Virus record (IMG/VR): IMGVR_UViG_3300033388_001377
Location: 1 to 43,278 of that record
DNA from: a virus
DNA length: 43,278 nucleotides
Reading direction: 5' to 3' (one strand)
A model generated the notes under the pieces. It searched no databases, was not told the origin of the DNA, and saw only the letters and a program-made list of their open reading frames with translations. Made by a program: the position numbers and the translations under genes. Of this stretch, positions 1,433-26,840 are shown in pieces. Position 1 is the first letter of the stretch, and each line of letters starts with the position of its first letter.

Positions 1433-4009
1433 TTAGATACCTCCCCCCGTTATCAACGGGATATACATGCTGTTATCTGGATTGCTAAAATCTAGCCCAT
1501 CAGGAAAAGGGATAGGACCTGCCCCACAAGAGTGGTCTCCTATCCATACTAACATCAGGTTATATTCTTGCTCAGTGAACACTTTGGATTGCGGATAAAT
1601 CGCCCGCCCCGTTAAGTGGCAACCTCCATTTTTCTTTCTGAACTGAAGCCATGTGTTATCGCTTCCGTTGGGATGCGCAAGATAGTCGGCAAATGTTTTA
1701 TCATCGAACGTTGCACCTCCTGCGCTCAGGAAAAGATTATCAAGAAGAACCGCGTCTGTGTCGCTTGTTTTAACATTTGCTCCGTTATGGATTCCCCCAC
1801 CATCACGAGTTATGCCGCCATTAAATACATCGGACCCGCCCGACTGTGCGCCAGTTGACCACACGCTGTCAAATCCGATTGTCTGGTCTCCAGTTGTATG
1901 CTGCCAGAAAGAATATCTGCCTATGTTTGGCGCGAACTCCGTGGAGGTGGCCTGCCCAACAAGCGCATCATTAATGTATACTTTGATAGTATCGTCTGCG
2001 TAGGTATAGTGGATTTTGTGGCTCACATTCAACGGCAGAATCGGGTCAATCGTCCCCTGTGCGTGGATGGTCAACCCACCGCCGCCACCTGTGACGGCAT
2101 TTTCGAGAAACCACGAATCTCGCATGACGCGAATATGGGTAATTCCCTGATACCATGGATCGAGTTCGGACGCCTGTATAAGAACAATGTCACGCTCTCC
2201 TGTGCCGAGGTCTTCCCATGTAACATAGCACCCTATCTCTGATGCCGGGGCCTCTGTGTACGCCCCCCAATAAGCAGGGTCTGTGTCCTGATTTGCATAC
2301 AACCGCTCACCCTGAATCTGTAGCCCTGTATCCGTCAATCCAAAACCAAACCCTCCGTGAAATATATACTCAAGGGCCGGGGGGTCTGTTACCACCTCAA
2401 ATGCAGTATCAGGCCGTGCGAAATCGTCAAAGAACAGATCGGAGTTTGTTGCCTGTACCGGCGCTTCCATCAGGTCCGGTGATCCGAGATTTGTAGTCTG
2501 CGAAAGGTCTATAGTTTCACCATCAAGAACGACCCCGCCAATTAGACCCGCCGTGTAGTCGGAGGCTATTTTGCGAGGGGAATTACCCAGTGCAAGTTGG
2601 TCGCCGCCTGATAGGTCCAGCGTTGGCGTTGTTCCCCATGCCCGGAATATACCATCCAGATAAACTCTGATATCATCTGCGTCAATGACAACCAATTCCA
2701 AATTATAGAGTGTGTTTAGCTGGAACACACCATTCAGAGTACGGAAGGCGGTGCCTCCCGTGCGAGTAAGCAGTCTTAATAGGCCGGTATTCCCGAGGCC
2801 CAGATACCATCCCTCCGTACCCGCCGAGTTTTCTGTACCTGCAAATTTGTGATACTGATTGGCCCCTTTATAGGCGGTTACATAGAAGGAAAATTTTAAC
2901 GAGAAGGATGTGCCGGGTGTCTTGTCCGTCTGGAAAAAATCATCAACTCCATCACACCATGCCGAATACGCGAACCCATCTTCTAGGCTTGGCGCAATCC
3001 TGCCAACATTTGTTCTGGTGTAGTTCGCAGGGAATGGCAGGTGGTTGCCATACTGGGAAGAGTCCAGCAATAGACCGCCTGCTCCCTCTGCGAGCGAGGG
3101 CTTGTATACTACAACATCATTATACAGAAGCTCCACTGCGTGGATTTGTCCAAGGAAGGGATTGGACGGGACTGCGCCCAATAATCGGGCCGCGATGGTG
3201 ATTGTAGATCCCGTGTGTGCTTGCGTAAGTCCTGAGGTAGAAAGGGCAACCTCCTCATCGTCAATAAGCACTTTCTCACTAACGTAGTCCACCGTAGCTT
3301 TTACGAGGCTCCCGACAGTCAAAGGGGCATCGGTTTCATACCAAGTTCCGCTAAACAAGACTAGCAAGCTCTCTGTGTTGGTGATAGAAAACGATCCAGA
3401 ATCTTGAATGCCCCCCACGAGTGCATTGACAGATGTGGCGTTGGGGACCGTAAACCATATATTTGCCTTATTGGCTGTATACAGTTCTTTCTCGGTGTCG
3501 ATGTACCCGGTCCCCGTTGAGGTTATCGAGTTTGCCGCAACAGCCACGGCCTTGCTTAGTCCTGCCGTCGCTTTGTCGTTGTAAGTCGCGCCGAATGTGT
3601 TCGGCTCTGGGTTGTCGATCCATTGCAGGAGGTCGGTGAGGACGGGGCCGAATTTGATAAGCAACAGCAAAACGTAAAGCCGCCAGTCTTGCGCGGCGGA
3701 TGCCGGGATTGAATACGTTATTCCGTTTAGATCAAGAATGGATTGAACCGCTTTTATTTGCCGTTCTCGCGCCGTTCCTGATACTTCCGGCGTTGCCCCG
3801 ACCGTAACCGCAAGTTGGTGCAGATAATAAGCCTTTCGCGTTTCAAGTGATGCGGATGAGCCTACGAAATCTCCGCCGAGCGCCTCGATTATGAGTTTGC
3901 AAACTTCGCAGAATCGGTTTAGTGAGTACCCGTTAACGCTCGACACATCAATGCCTGTGTCTATTGCGGCGGACCTTAGTGCTTCATATTGTTTATAAAT
4001 CACGCTCAT
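1433..4009 (-). CDS. Large tail protein with LamG/concanavalin-like beta-sandwich domains, probable receptor-binding fibre or spike
   Basis: 858 residues from the ATG at 4009, which forms an ATGA overlap with the upstream gene and has GGGAAAAG ahead of it. A GTG at 4024 is a weaker alternative. The first 140 residues are helical and probably the attachment part. A LamG-like sandwich follows at about residues 310-520, with the typical run of LLLDSS, WCDGVDDFF, a Phe-rich FSFYV strand, VYLDG and LALGNS. A second jelly-roll-like segment spans about 535-720 and starts with FFDDFARPD. The C-terminus is glycine-rich and ends in a W-rich block. LamG-type domains bind glycans or other surface ligands, and the position after the tail hub fits host recognition. 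The ligand cannot be read from the sequence. Confidence 0.75.
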   Translation of the reverse strand: MSVIYKQYEALRSAAIDTGIDVSSVNGYSLNRFCEVCKLIIEALGGDFVGSSASLETRKAYYLHQLAVTVGATPEVSGTARERQIKAVQSILDLNGITYSIPASAAQDWRLYVLLLLIKFGPVLTDLLQWIDNPEPNTFGATYNDKATAGLSKAVAVAANSITSTGTGYIDTEKELYTANKANIWFTVPNATSVNALVGGIQDSGSFSITNTESLLVLFSGTWYETDAPLTVGSLVKATVDYVSEKVLIDDEEVALSTSGLTQAHTGSTITIAARLLGAVPSNPFLGQIHAVELLYNDVVVYKPSLAEGAGGLLLDSSQYGNHLPFPANYTRTNVGRIAPSLEDGFAYSAWCDGVDDFFQTDKTPGTSFSLKFSFYVTAYKGANQYHKFAGTENSAGTEGWYLGLGNTGLLRLLTRTGGTAFRTLNGVFQLNTLYNLELVVIDADDIRVYLDGIFRAWGTTPTLDLSGGDQLALGNSPRKIASDYTAGLIGGVVLDGETIDLSQTTNLGSPDLMEAPVQATNSDLFFDDFARPDTAFEVVTDPPALEYIFHGGFGFGLTDTGLQIQGERLYANQDTDPAYWGAYTEAPASEIGCYVTWEDLGTGERDIVLIQASELDPWYQGITHIRVMRDSWFLENAVTGGGGGLTIHAQGTIDPILPLNVSHKIHYTYADDTIKVYINDALVGQATSTEFAPNIGRYSFWQHTTGDQTIGFDSVWSTGAQSGGSDVFNGGITRDGGGIHNGANVKTSDTDAVLLDNLFLSAGGATFDDKTFADYLAHPNGSDNTWLQFRKKNGGCHLTGRAIYPQSKVFTEQEYNLMLVWIGDHSCGAGPIPFPDGLDFSNPDNSMYIPLITGGGI

Positions 4010-6423
4010 ATTTGCTTTTCCCACTCTGTGTAACTATCAAAACCGCTTCTAACACTTTTAAGCTGGAAGGTCAACGGTGAAGGGATATTAATCGCAACTA
4101 ATGCGGAACCCGTATAAATTCCGAGCGCGGTATACGTTCCTTCTGGATCTGCGTTGACAAGCTCAAAGCCATCGGTCGGCACAACTCCAACCGCCGTGCT
4201 AATAAACCAGCGAGTGTTCGCCGTGTTCCACCAGATGTAATAGGTGGCTCCGTCATAATAGGTCGGCTTTCCGTCGTTTGTTCCGGTTTCGGTAAATGCG
4301 CCCGTAACGTCCGGCGTCATAGTGCCGCTTACGATCAATCCAACATCCGTGCGTTGCTCTGCCTCGGTGTAGGTGTAAGTATCGGCGGTAATTCCTGTGA
4401 TTTGCCGCAACTGAGTAACCCCGTCAAGAATCGTCAAGGTGTCGGTCTGGCCAGCCTCTCCGGTCTGCGCGGCTTCTGATTGTTCAGTGATTGCGTAACC
4501 ATTAAGGCGCGTTCTCGTTTTCCACGTTGTGACATAATCGCCAGCGGTTGGCGTAATGACGAAATCGGCAGGGGGATATGGTGTCTGGAACCGCTCTGCA
4601 ACTGTTAGGCTGTATTCTGTTGCGTCACCAATCGCAAGCGTTGACTTTGAGGTTTTAATCAAAAGCTTTTCGTCAAAAGAGGCTCCAGCTAAGAGTTCAG
4701 GCGACTCAACATAGGATTGCGTTGAAAGGAACAGCAAAGGCTTGGCGGCATCATGCGCGATTGGAACGGTGTCAATTGCTCCTCGCGCAAGTTCAATGTC
4801 TCCAGTGATAGCATCGACCGCAACAACCTTCATAAACTCGCCGTCATAATAAGCCGGTGTGTTTATTTCGACATCAGATAAACCCGCGAACCCTGAGAGC
4901 GTTGTGACAATGTTTGCGATTGAATCATCCAGCGCATCCGGCAAGACACCAACCGGCGTGTAAGAGTCAGATCTGTAGAACGAGTAACCGCCACCAAGAT
5001 CGAGCCATGTATCAAATCCGATTGATTGCCCCTGAATCTGAGGAACAAGCGTTATCCCAAAGCCGGTTCCGGTTGGTTGGTTCTGCGCAGATTCCTCGCC
5101 ATTGAAACGCACCAGTTCGTAATATGGCATATCCATGATTACAGCCTGATCATTATCAATCGGATCGTCTTCAGGATTTACCCAACCAGAATTCTGAGGC
5201 GCTGAATAAATTGCGTTGTTGATTCCGAAAACATCTTCCGCAACATTGATGGAGAGCTTATTGTCTGAAAGCTCGCCATAATCAACGCTGACCACGCGCA
5301 CAACAACGCTTTCGATTCCCCACGCCGGATAGGTCAAAATGAAAACATCGCCAGCGTTGTAATCGAGAAACATGCGCGTACCAATTATGGTGCATTTGAA
5401 TAATGCAGATGATGCCTGCTTCAATTCTCTTGCAGCAACAATGCTTGCCAGATCAGATTCATGGATCCCATAATAATCAAACGACCCCTGAACGCGCCGA
5501 CCCTGTGCATTGATGTTTGCGATATTCGCAGATGATGCAACGCGCTTTGAATAGTTGTTTGAGCGGTCGGTGAAGTTGATGTAAATATCATTGATAAGCT
5601 CTGAATTACTCGGGCGGGCAAAGTCCTTTAGCTGTACAATTTCATCTTCTCCGAATGTCTCCAAGTTGCCGACAATGTAATCATCACGAATCATTTTGAT
5701 ATAATATTTGCCGTTTAAATCCTGATAGATTGAGCAATCAATGATGTTGCGGATATCATTTAGGAACTCAGAAACGGAAGCCTCTGAGCGGTCAAATGTA
5801 AACGAAAGCCCGAATCCTTCATCAAAGCAAATGTCTGCTGCCGCCTCGAAAGAAACGGAGTCAATCAATGCCGTCGATTCATTCAGGCCGAACACCGGAG
5901 AAACTAAGCATTCGCGGATAATGTGAACCGGGTTTAAGTCGTCACCGATGCGGGCTTTTGCGATATACCATTGCGCCGTATAATCCGCTTGTGTGTCCGT
6001 TCGGCGCATCACTGCTGACAACGGTTTTAGATAATTTGTTGTTCCGAAGTAAAACGCAGACGAGAAAAAGCTAAAAAATCCGCCCGAAGCGCCGCCGCCT
6101 CGAAATACAAGTCCAACGCGGCCCCTGTAAGCCGGTATATCTGTGCCGAGTTGCGATTGAAGGTAAGTGTTTTTGATCTGCGATGCCGCTCCGGTTTCGA
6201 AATCAACAGTGCCAGAAACGCCGCCCTCTTTCTCATCACCGCCGAAAAGATTTGGCGCATTAATTGAAATGGCTTGGTTCGATGTTGCCGACCCAGACCA
6301 CGCTATTTCATCGTCAAAGCGAATCTCCTTCAACTCATCGACGGATCCAAGAGAAAGGATGTTGTGCATTCCCATTCTGTAGCGATATCCAACTGTTTGC
6401 TTGTCTTTGCTGAATAATCCCAT
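4006..6423 (-). CDS. Tail-tip hub protein (lambda gpJ-like, phage tail protein III family)
   Basis: 805 residues. The opening MGLFSK, the RFDDEIAWSG segment and the long central region around IRECLVSPVFGLNES resemble the phage tail protein III family of tail hubs, which join the tube to the receptor-binding apparatus. Residues about 704-773 form a compact module with GKPTYY and YIWW that is also present at the C-terminus of the tail tube protein at 14556-15830. It lies between the small gene at 6427 and the LamG protein and overlaps the latter by 4 bases. AAGGA precedes the ATG. The hub assignment rests on family resemblance and gene order. Confidence 0.8.
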   Translation of the reverse strand: MGLFSKDKQTVGYRYRMGMHNILSLGSVDELKEIRFDDEIAWSGSATSNQAISINAPNLFGGDEKEGGVSGTVDFETGAASQIKNTYLQSQLGTDIPAYRGRVGLVFRGGGASGGFFSFFSSAFYFGTTNYLKPLSAVMRRTDTQADYTAQWYIAKARIGDDLNPVHIIRECLVSPVFGLNESTALIDSVSFEAAADICFDEGFGLSFTFDRSEASVSEFLNDIRNIIDCSIYQDLNGKYYIKMIRDDYIVGNLETFGEDEIVQLKDFARPSNSELINDIYINFTDRSNNYSKRVASSANIANINAQGRRVQGSFDYYGIHESDLASIVAARELKQASSALFKCTIIGTRMFLDYNAGDVFILTYPAWGIESVVVRVVSVDYGELSDNKLSINVAEDVFGINNAIYSAPQNSGWVNPEDDPIDNDQAVIMDMPYYELVRFNGEESAQNQPTGTGFGITLVPQIQGQSIGFDTWLDLGGGYSFYRSDSYTPVGVLPDALDDSIANIVTTLSGFAGLSDVEINTPAYYDGEFMKVVAVDAITGDIELARGAIDTVPIAHDAAKPLLFLSTQSYVESPELLAGASFDEKLLIKTSKSTLAIGDATEYSLTVAERFQTPYPPADFVITPTAGDYVTTWKTRTRLNGYAITEQSEAAQTGEAGQTDTLTILDGVTQLRQITGITADTYTYTEAEQRTDVGLIVSGTMTPDVTGAFTETGTNDGKPTYYDGATYYIWWNTANTRWFISTAVGVVPTDGFELVNADPEGTYTALGIYTGSALVAINIPSPLTFQLKSVRSGFDSYTEWEKQI

Positions 6424-25920: not shown

Positions 25921-25961
25921 GATTCCGTTTCATCCGCTCTGACCGACTGAGCTACGAGTCT
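25921..25961 (-). other. tRNA-like 5' fragment (acceptor start and D-arm only)
   Basis: The minus-strand sequence CTCGTAGCTCAGTCGGTCAG matches the start of a bacterial tRNA. The D stem is GCTC/GAGC (25952-25949 and 25939-25936) with a 9-base loop containing GG. No full anticodon arm, T arm or 3' acceptor strand follows; the sequence runs into the ribosome site of the next gene. It is therefore a fragment or a mimic, not a working tRNA. Confidence 0.5.
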
Positions 25962-26021
25962 GTTTAAAATGTTTCTGTCAAATGCGCTCTAAACACTGGC
26001 CGCCTAGGTCTCCATTTATTC

Positions 26022-26096
26022 ACACGGTGGGGAGACTCCACGAGACCCTTTTGGGTTTCTGCGCATCTCAGCGCGTCCTCAGTCGTATATCCGTGT
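26022..26096 (-). ncRNA. Type I hammerhead ribozyme-like fold
   Basis: All core parts occur in the right order on the minus strand. CUGAGGA (26082-26076) fits CUGANGA. Stem II is GCGC/GCGC with a 6-base loop. GAAA is at 26059-26056. Stem III is ACCC/GGGU with an AAAA loop. The cleavage triplet GUC ends at 26044, so cleavage is expected between 26044 and 26043. Stem I pairs ACGA (26086-26083) with UCGU (26043-26040) and continues, after an internal loop, as ACACGG (26096-26091) with CCGUGU (26027-26022). The one flaw is a C-A mismatch at the base of stem II, normally a G-C pair. The fold lies in a gene-free stretch just ahead of the packaging genes. Confidence 0.75.
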
Positions 26097-26322
26097 CCAG
26101 ATGCTTCTTATGTCAGCGGCCTTGAGAAGCCAGCGATTAGAACGCATTTAACGTTATGTACCTTCGCACTTTTCCGCGTTCGTGTCAAGAGCCTGTGCAG
26201 TGCGCTTGATCAAGAACCGATTGCGCGAGCTTTAACCGTGCCGAGAGATGAAGTCAAGAACCAAGTCCCAACCTGCTAATTGGCAAAATAATGCAAGCCA
26301 AAAGAACTTTTCAAGAAACGGC

Positions 26323-26483: not shown

Positions 26484-26840
26484 CTATTCTTCAACCCACT
26501 TTCCGCCTTCGTCTTTAACATCGACTCTGATTTCTTTCATCTGTTTATCAACGATCTTGTCGACGCCCGCAAGCGTGCCGCTCTGCCTCGAAGTTTCCAG
26601 CCTGTGCCAGTTATTGAACTCCTTGGTATTTGCCATGCGTTTAAATGCGGCCTCTTTATTCTTCCGCTGTGATCGCCCATCCTCTGATTTGCCAACAGCG
26701 CCGGATGAAACATGCGTACACCTGACACAATTCGCGGTCCTGTTTCGCTTCTGCCCGCCCTTGCCGCTTCCGACATAGTAATCAAATTCGCAATCATTCG
26801 CCGTTACGCTGAACAATATCTCCCTGTTTGCCTTGTTCAT
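26484..26840 (-). CDS. GGQ-domain protein, release factor / ArfB-like peptidyl-tRNA hydrolase
   Basis: 118 residues. A central GSGKGGQKRNRTANCVRCTH segment places the catalytic GGQ at residues 28-30, followed by GRSQRKNKEAAFKRM, the second conserved block of the RF-1 catalytic domain. The codon-recognition domain of a true release factor is absent. The C-terminal part (about 70-118) is charged and helical, as in ArfB, where a basic tail enters the empty mRNA channel. The expected reaction is hydrolysis of peptidyl-tRNA on ribosomes. It sits at the start of the late operon with a GAGGAG site. Cys17, Cys38 and Cys41 are not part of the known active site. Confidence 0.8.
   Translation of the reverse strand: MNKANREILFSVTANDCEFDYYVGSGKGGQKRNRTANCVRCTHVSSGAVGKSEDGRSQRKNKEAAFKRMANTKEFNNWHRLETSRQSGTLAGVDKIVDKQMKEIRVDVKDEGGKWVEE

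Follow-up and report, generated by a model that had tools for sequence, protein, structure and literature searches.

Our comparative analysis of the window, i.e., the complete 43,278-nucleotide stretch of IMG/VR viral record IMGVR_UViG_3300033388_001377, revealed on its minus strand a probable self-cutting hammerhead lying within a larger, intricately folded RNA that is common to many unrelated phages. The whole conserved element, a two-half pseudoknotted scaffold with a hammerhead insert, occupies positions 25997-26136 (minus strand), as delimited by BLAST homology to phages of Mycobacterium abscessus and by parsing together with 157 homologs; from 26136 to 25998 the minus strand reads UCGCUGGCUUCUCAAGGCCGCUGACAUAAGAAGCAUCUGGACACGGAUAUACGACUGAGGACGCGCUGAGAUGCGCAGAAACCCAAAAGGGUCUCGUGGAGUCUCCCCACCGUGUGAAUAAAUGGAGACCUAGGCGGCC. 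The extent of 26022-26096 assigned by the original prediction was thus too small, as conservation runs well past both of its ends. The best explanation, in which we place considerable confidence, is a transcribed phage RNA module composed of a double-pseudoknot scaffold with an optional type I-like hammerhead as its linker.

All hammerhead parts named by the original prediction are present on the minus strand where it had placed them. The 5' strand of stem I, ACGA (26083-26086), pairs with UCGU (26040-26043), which is at the same time the start of half B of the scaffold, and pair 1.1/2.1 of this stem covaries among A-U, G-C and C-G. The core C3-A9, CUGAGGA (26076-26082), is followed by stem II (26060-26075), in which GCGC (26071-26074) pairs with GCGC (26061-26064) beneath a UGAGAU loop and C(26075) faces A(26060) at 10.1/11.1. 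G12, A13, A14 and A15.1 (GAAA, 26056-26059) lead into stem III (26045-26056), formed by ACCC (26053-26056) and GGGU (26045-26048) around an AAAA loop, with U 26045 pairing with A15.1. The predicted self-cleavage site lies between C17 (26044) and U1.1 (26043), as had been proposed; the C at 26044 and the composition of position 17 in the homologs agree with this site, and cleavage there is very likely, judged from the sequence comparison. The assignment to type I is borne out by the core, by homology and by the stem order, with stem I open to the outside. Out of the two-part stem I envisaged earlier, the ACGA/UCGU part stands, whereas ACACGG/CCGUGU is not a plain continuation of it but a pseudoknot, because its 3' strand sits in the loop of the hairpin GUCUCC/GGAGAC.

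The hammerhead-like fold at this place is real and not a product of chance. A strict descriptor (core, at least four pairs each in stems II and III, H17 and four pairs of stem I) matched once in the window and not at all in 10.4 Mb of simulated first-order Markov sequence, both strands being scanned, and homologs exist, in line with the earlier statement that a chance match was very unlikely. Folding energy was uninformative, the isolated 83-nt fold being of unremarkable stability (z -1.4) and the hammerhead junction being absent from the output of the folding program, so that the support comes from comparison.

The comparison covered 112 distinct hammerheads, whose core was never used as a search term. 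The catalytic core, or its compensated C3U/G8A version, was kept in 111 of them: CUGANGA was found in 108 and UUGANAA, the C3U/G8A swap, in three, the remaining one being an apparent parsing error. GAA was present in 112/112 and the A15.1-U16.1 pair in 111/112, position 17 was C in 70, A in 38, U in four and never G, and stems I, II and III all covary. The C3U/G8A swap is described as natural and active in hammerheads by Perreault et al. (2011, PMC3088659). The Arthrobacter phage Constance carries a fully canonical core with A17. In Mycobacterium phage Gaia (L010:2481-2620), a cultured phage, we observed a UUGAUAA core, i.e., the compensated C3U/G8A form.

The C-A mismatch at the base of stem II, earlier singled out as the weak point, is present; it is a family trait, as 53 of the 112 hammerheads lack G-C there (GC 59, AA 30, UU 16, CA 4, AC 2, AG 1). 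According to Perreault et al. (2011, PMC3088659), hammerhead predictions mispaired at 10.1-11.1 were rejected unless activity was measured, and by this screening rule for a Watson-Crick pair the window copy, with its C.A, falls outside. The window domain has the C3-A9 core, G12, A13 and A14 with A15.1-U16.1, a C as H17 and three covariation-backed helices in type I order; its own 10.1-11.1 position being unpaired, its provisional filing as a hammerhead rests on homology to siblings in which every rule holds. Position N7 is G in the window copy, a base found there in three of the 112 hammerheads, and together with the C.A at 10.1/11.1 it suggests that the window copy may be slow.

The Rfam hammerhead models, whose silence the original prediction had named as a sign against it, gave no match in the window at E up to 10, either over the whole window or locally with lax thresholds; yet a covariance model trained on 34 homologous domains, with the window left out, detected the window domain with E=8.8e-10 and 42.0 bits, whereas no other site in the window scored above 11.9 bits. 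One sibling matches Rfam Hammerhead_HH9 (RF02275) at E=6e-5, under the cut-off of that family, and sub-threshold Rfam hits of siblings scored 20.9 and 26.5 bits. The failure of Rfam to report the window copy reflects the Rfam models, and the tolerance of the family for a 10.1/11.1 mismatch helps to explain it. The scaffold itself, represented by a hammerhead-less copy (L101), retrieved nothing meaningful among the 4227 covariance models of Rfam 15 at E up to 10, and the elements, though neighbours of tRNA genes, were not called as tRNAs, with no cloverleaf reported by ARAGORN or RF00005. The exact sequence of the window core, scanned in viral contigs, did not occur there.

Homologs were traced by distant BLAST and by sequence patterns. 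BLAST revealed phages of M. abscessus with 75% identity across the hammerhead and its downstream flank, their copies being located between tRNA-Ser and tRNA-Trp genes, and these phages used as query led to Mycobacterium phage Gaia and Arthrobacter phage Constance. In Microcystis phage Mwe-JY26 the match covered the 3' part only and the hammerhead was wholly missing. A half B pattern lying outside the hammerhead (GGAGT..RAATAANTG...ACCTAGG), scanned on IMG/VR, was found in 89 IMG/VR contigs and additionally in 8 genome contigs; a broader version retrieved at least 120 contigs, and a half A pattern added 12 further genuine copies, 4 of them with a hammerhead. Though blind to the hammerhead region, the half B searches still recovered hammerheads in most copies. 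Viral contigs, isolated phages and a small number of genome contigs together supplied at least 157 distinct copies that could be parsed, and more exist in nature. A hammerhead was present in 121 of the 157 (106 canonical and 15 permuted copies) and absent from 33, in which a short linker or small hairpin stood instead; 3 had other inserts. Long inserts not recognisable as hammerheads were noted at the hammerhead position in L132, L156 and L169, of which that in L156 could be another folded domain. Seven pattern matches (L003, L098, L113, L116, L122, L127 and L128) were discarded as false, having no pairing halves. Pseudomonas phage PaP3, which has a hammerhead known from Perreault et al. (2011, PMC3088659), yielded no copy by the parser and a weak model hit only, and a plasmid search returned one hit, which was unrelated.

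The scaffold lies beyond stem I, is about 95 nt long and has two halves of similar build, which a pair of covarying pseudoknots holds together. Half A follows the plan NCGUGG-P1-CA-K1-CUGACA-P1'-AUCUGG-K2' and half B the plan NCGUGGA-P6-CCA-K2-GAAUAACU-P6'-CUAGG-K1'; in canonical order the hammerhead stands between K2' and half B, taking the place of the inter-half linker in most copies. In the window (minus strand) half A starts with the NCG triplet UCG (26134-26136), which is repeated at the start of half B (26041-26043). P1 is formed by GCUUCU (26125-26130) and AGAAGC (26103-26108), the latter running into the nearly invariant AUCUGG (together 26097-26108). GGCCGC in loop A (26116-26121) pairs with GCGGCC (25998-26003) as pseudoknot K1, with a one-base shift of register in the window copy, and ACACGG (26091-26096) pairs with CCGUGU (26022-26027) as K2. 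P6 joins GUCUCC (26031-26036) to GGAGAC (26008-26013); its loop B (26014-26030) holds the K2 3' strand and the conserved GAAUAAAU (26014-26021), and the conserved CUAGG and the K1 3' strand occupy 25998-26007. The shared plan of the two halves suggests an internal duplication.

All four scaffold helices are supported by covariation. Among 80 copies, the expected partners were paired in 476 of 480 cells for P1, 480/480 for P6, which covaries, 476/480 for K1 and 479/480 for K2, compared with at most 342 (K1) and 413 (K2) of 480 when partners were shuffled between copies, and the expected pairs of P1, P6, K1 and K2 ranked top by mutual information. In MAFFT alignments the covariation score was 0.544 for 25 hammerhead-less copies (0.16 when shuffled, 0/500) and 0.557 for 40 hammerhead copies (0.15 when shuffled, 0/500), while slid partners gave at most 0.13 and 0.09, respectively; P1 showed both-sided changes at five of its six pairs in each of the two alignments. 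An extra contact was found between the start of half A and loop B, where the fourth base of CGUGG covaries with the C of AAUAACU; this is mostly G-C, else U-A or C-A, and is U-A in the window copy. Strongly conserved unpaired bases (AUCUGG, GAAUAA(C/A)U and CUAGG) surround the pseudoknots; AAUAA in loop B is invariant, but forms part of the search pattern. Of 142 canonical copies, 136 have one and the same first NCG base (G, C, U or A) at the start of both halves, whether or not a hammerhead is present; in hammerhead-less copies no complementary cis partner for the repeated NCG was found nearby.

In 15 of the 157 parsed copies, including those of Enterobacter phage SDFMU_EhYP, Pectobacterium phage Pappous and several contigs, the halves occur in swapped order: the hammerhead and half B with K1' come first, followed by a hairpin linker and half A. 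These permuted copies retain all four scaffold helices and the hammerhead, which indicates that the order of the halves is free and the pairings are not. In SDFMU_EhYP the ends are joined by a terminal stem, AAGAGCACUG/CAGUGCUCUU. Circularly permuted elements were observed at L118:2990-3225 and L120:1450-1640 and in L131, L144, L179 and L191, and the hairpin linker between the halves is in several permuted copies of the type ACCCUAA...UUUAGGGC. One phage contig (L017:236-442) contains two tandem hammerhead-less copies, with N = U and C.

At the head of the packaging operon, where the original prediction had set it, the window element stands ahead of the genes for the small and large terminase subunits, portal and head proteins: it lies between a release-factor-like gene with an RF-1 domain just upstream (26484-26840, minus strand; phrog_3122, E=7.7e-24) and a small ORF, after which the terminase, portal and head morphogenesis genes follow. 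Just downstream there is a tRNA-like relic (25935-25971, minus strand), 37 bases that correspond to a tRNA 5' half and are 86.5% identical to the tRNA-Ile gene of an Erwinia phage; such a relic would fit an eroded tRNA array, and no intact tRNA gene was found. Near the window element, promoter and terminator signals did not rise above chance level. Among the first 80 copies, 26 have a tRNA gene at most 400 bases away, in all 26 cases on the same strand and often only 0-6 nt from the tRNA ends, in keeping with an RNA that undergoes processing. Copies inside tRNA arrays, where tRNA enzymes already cut on both sides, frequently lack the hammerhead, which fits a processing role without proving it. 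Among the nearest downstream same-strand genes, the annotated families that recur most often are terminase subunits and HNH endonucleases; no gene neighbour is common to most copies, and the other copies do not share the RF-1 gene found at the window copy. In Mycobacterium phage phiGD24-3 (L001) we observed that the gene at 2259-4532, annotated as hypothetical, matches the Pfam family Beta-lactamase (PF00144, E=2.7e-45) and is classed by PHROGs as a minor tail protein with lysin activity.

In the module that we propose, the two homologous hairpin halves form a compact double pseudoknot, each loop pairing with the opposite half's tail. Roughly three quarters of the copies, that of the window included, have a type I-like hammerhead as the linker between these halves. 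The window element would probably be transcribed with the packaging operon, the RNA would fold and the hammerhead would cut at 26044/26043. Hammerhead cleavage is known to give a 2',3'-cyclic phosphate on the upstream side of the cut and a 5'-hydroxyl on its downstream side, and the two pieces produced here would carry these ends. As K1 and K2 bridge the cut, the cut RNA would be expected to stay assembled. The module would in this way part the upstream from the downstream transcripts, and the new ends, held in a tight fold, could resist nucleases; such an end-protecting role of the scaffold is a tentative idea that we consider possible rather than probable. Cleavage is not needed for the core function of the scaffold, given that some 20% of copies have no hammerhead. 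On a weak scaffold tree (86 positions), too weak to date gains and losses, hammerhead presence required 26 inferred changes versus 30 with shuffled labels; with this near-random distribution on the tree, the hammerhead acts like a module that moves or is readily lost.

Several other readings were weighed against this module. Chance resemblance might be argued from the nine loose CUGANGA...GAAA matches in the window, where 3.2 were expected, but it is ruled out by the empty simulation with the full descriptor and by covarying homologs in unrelated phages, and its probability is negligible. The initial proposal, a type I hammerhead standing by itself in the packaging leader, would account for the core and stems as described and for the position upstream of the terminase genes. 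It is hardly tenable, as the hammerhead is instead an optional domain of a larger RNA with four further covarying helices, P1, P6, K1 and K2, which persist in hammerhead-less copies. Homologs occur both near packaging genes and in tRNA arrays, and roughly one fifth of copies have no hammerhead. That the conserved object is a DNA site folding as a single strand, e.g., a packaging, replication or recombination signal, could be suspected from the frequent proximity of terminase genes and from the rarity of G-U pairs in scaffold helices (23 of 2826 cells in P1, P6 and K2, compared with 30 of about 750 in the hammerhead stems). However, most copies embed an RNA-only catalytic core, the strand agrees with that of adjacent tRNAs without exception and the genome position varies, which makes such a site very unlikely.

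Two further readings concern what the hammerhead does. The window copy could be a catalytically dead derivative whose junction is kept for structure alone, as its C.A at 10.1/11.1, a kind of mispair on which predictions were rejected in the published screening cited above, and its rare G at N7 would allow. We regard this as improbable, because 111 of 112 copies preserve the core bases and obey the NUH rule, structure alone would not make position 17 avoid G, and the C3U/G8A covariation, known to be active in hammerheads, appears three times here. Alternatively, the scaffold may sense a ligand or protein and thereby start or stop hammerhead cleavage, as a natural aptazyme would; the strongly conserved unpaired bases around the pseudoknots, attached directly to stem I, and the modularity of the hammerhead seen on the weak tree speak for it, whereas the widely varying neighbour genes and the many copies between tRNA genes are unlike a sensor of one pathway, and no expression platform is evident in copies that lack the hammerhead. 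Such control seems rather unlikely, and the transcribed scaffold module with an optional hammerhead linker is preferred.

The hammerhead domain shares with type I hammerheads (Rfam clan CL00010: RF00163, RF00008, RF02275) the order of stems, the C3-A9/G12-A14 core, A15.1-U16.1, H17, three covarying stems and, through one sibling, a match to RF02275. It differs in being built into the linker region of a larger RNA with pseudoknots, in its short stem I of 4 bp that is continued by a pseudoknot, and in a 10.1/11.1 position that departs from the canonical pair in roughly half of the copies, and it scores below the Rfam cut-offs. The phage and prophage hammerheads of Perreault et al. (2011, PMC3088659) are likewise intergenic, many have pseudoknots near stem I, and C3U/G8A covariation is seen in nature; a search of the text of that paper found no scaffold in common with hammerhead-less copies. 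Non-circularly permuted hammerheads (HRIMA-1, PMC10085705) also hold their core in an intricate multi-pseudoknot RNA; there the hammerhead blocks are permuted, whereas here the hammerhead order is normal and the outer scaffold occurs in two orders. GOLLD and ROOL (PMC12286853) are similarly structured phage non-coding RNAs of unknown function, but several hundred nt long, in contrast to a scaffold of about 95 nt with no Rfam match. Searches of open PMC papers found no earlier account of the element. An association with tRNAs is known for GOLLD.

The scaffold rather probably represents a natural RNA class of its own, with two homologous halves, reciprocal loop-tail pseudoknots and two circular orders in many tailed phages, in which the detachable hammerhead would convert a one-piece RNA into a two-piece complex. 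Its lack of a described relative in Rfam 15, together with its internal duplication and its permuted copies, makes it well suited to structural study, and isolates carrying the element (Gaia, Constance, SDFMU_EhYP and Pappous) are available in principle. To our knowledge, phage hammerheads have so far been without a clear role. In the present element such a hammerhead comes with a defined RNA partner that is both widespread and strongly conserved, and as the same scaffold occurs without the hammerhead, the purpose of the cut becomes directly testable by comparison.
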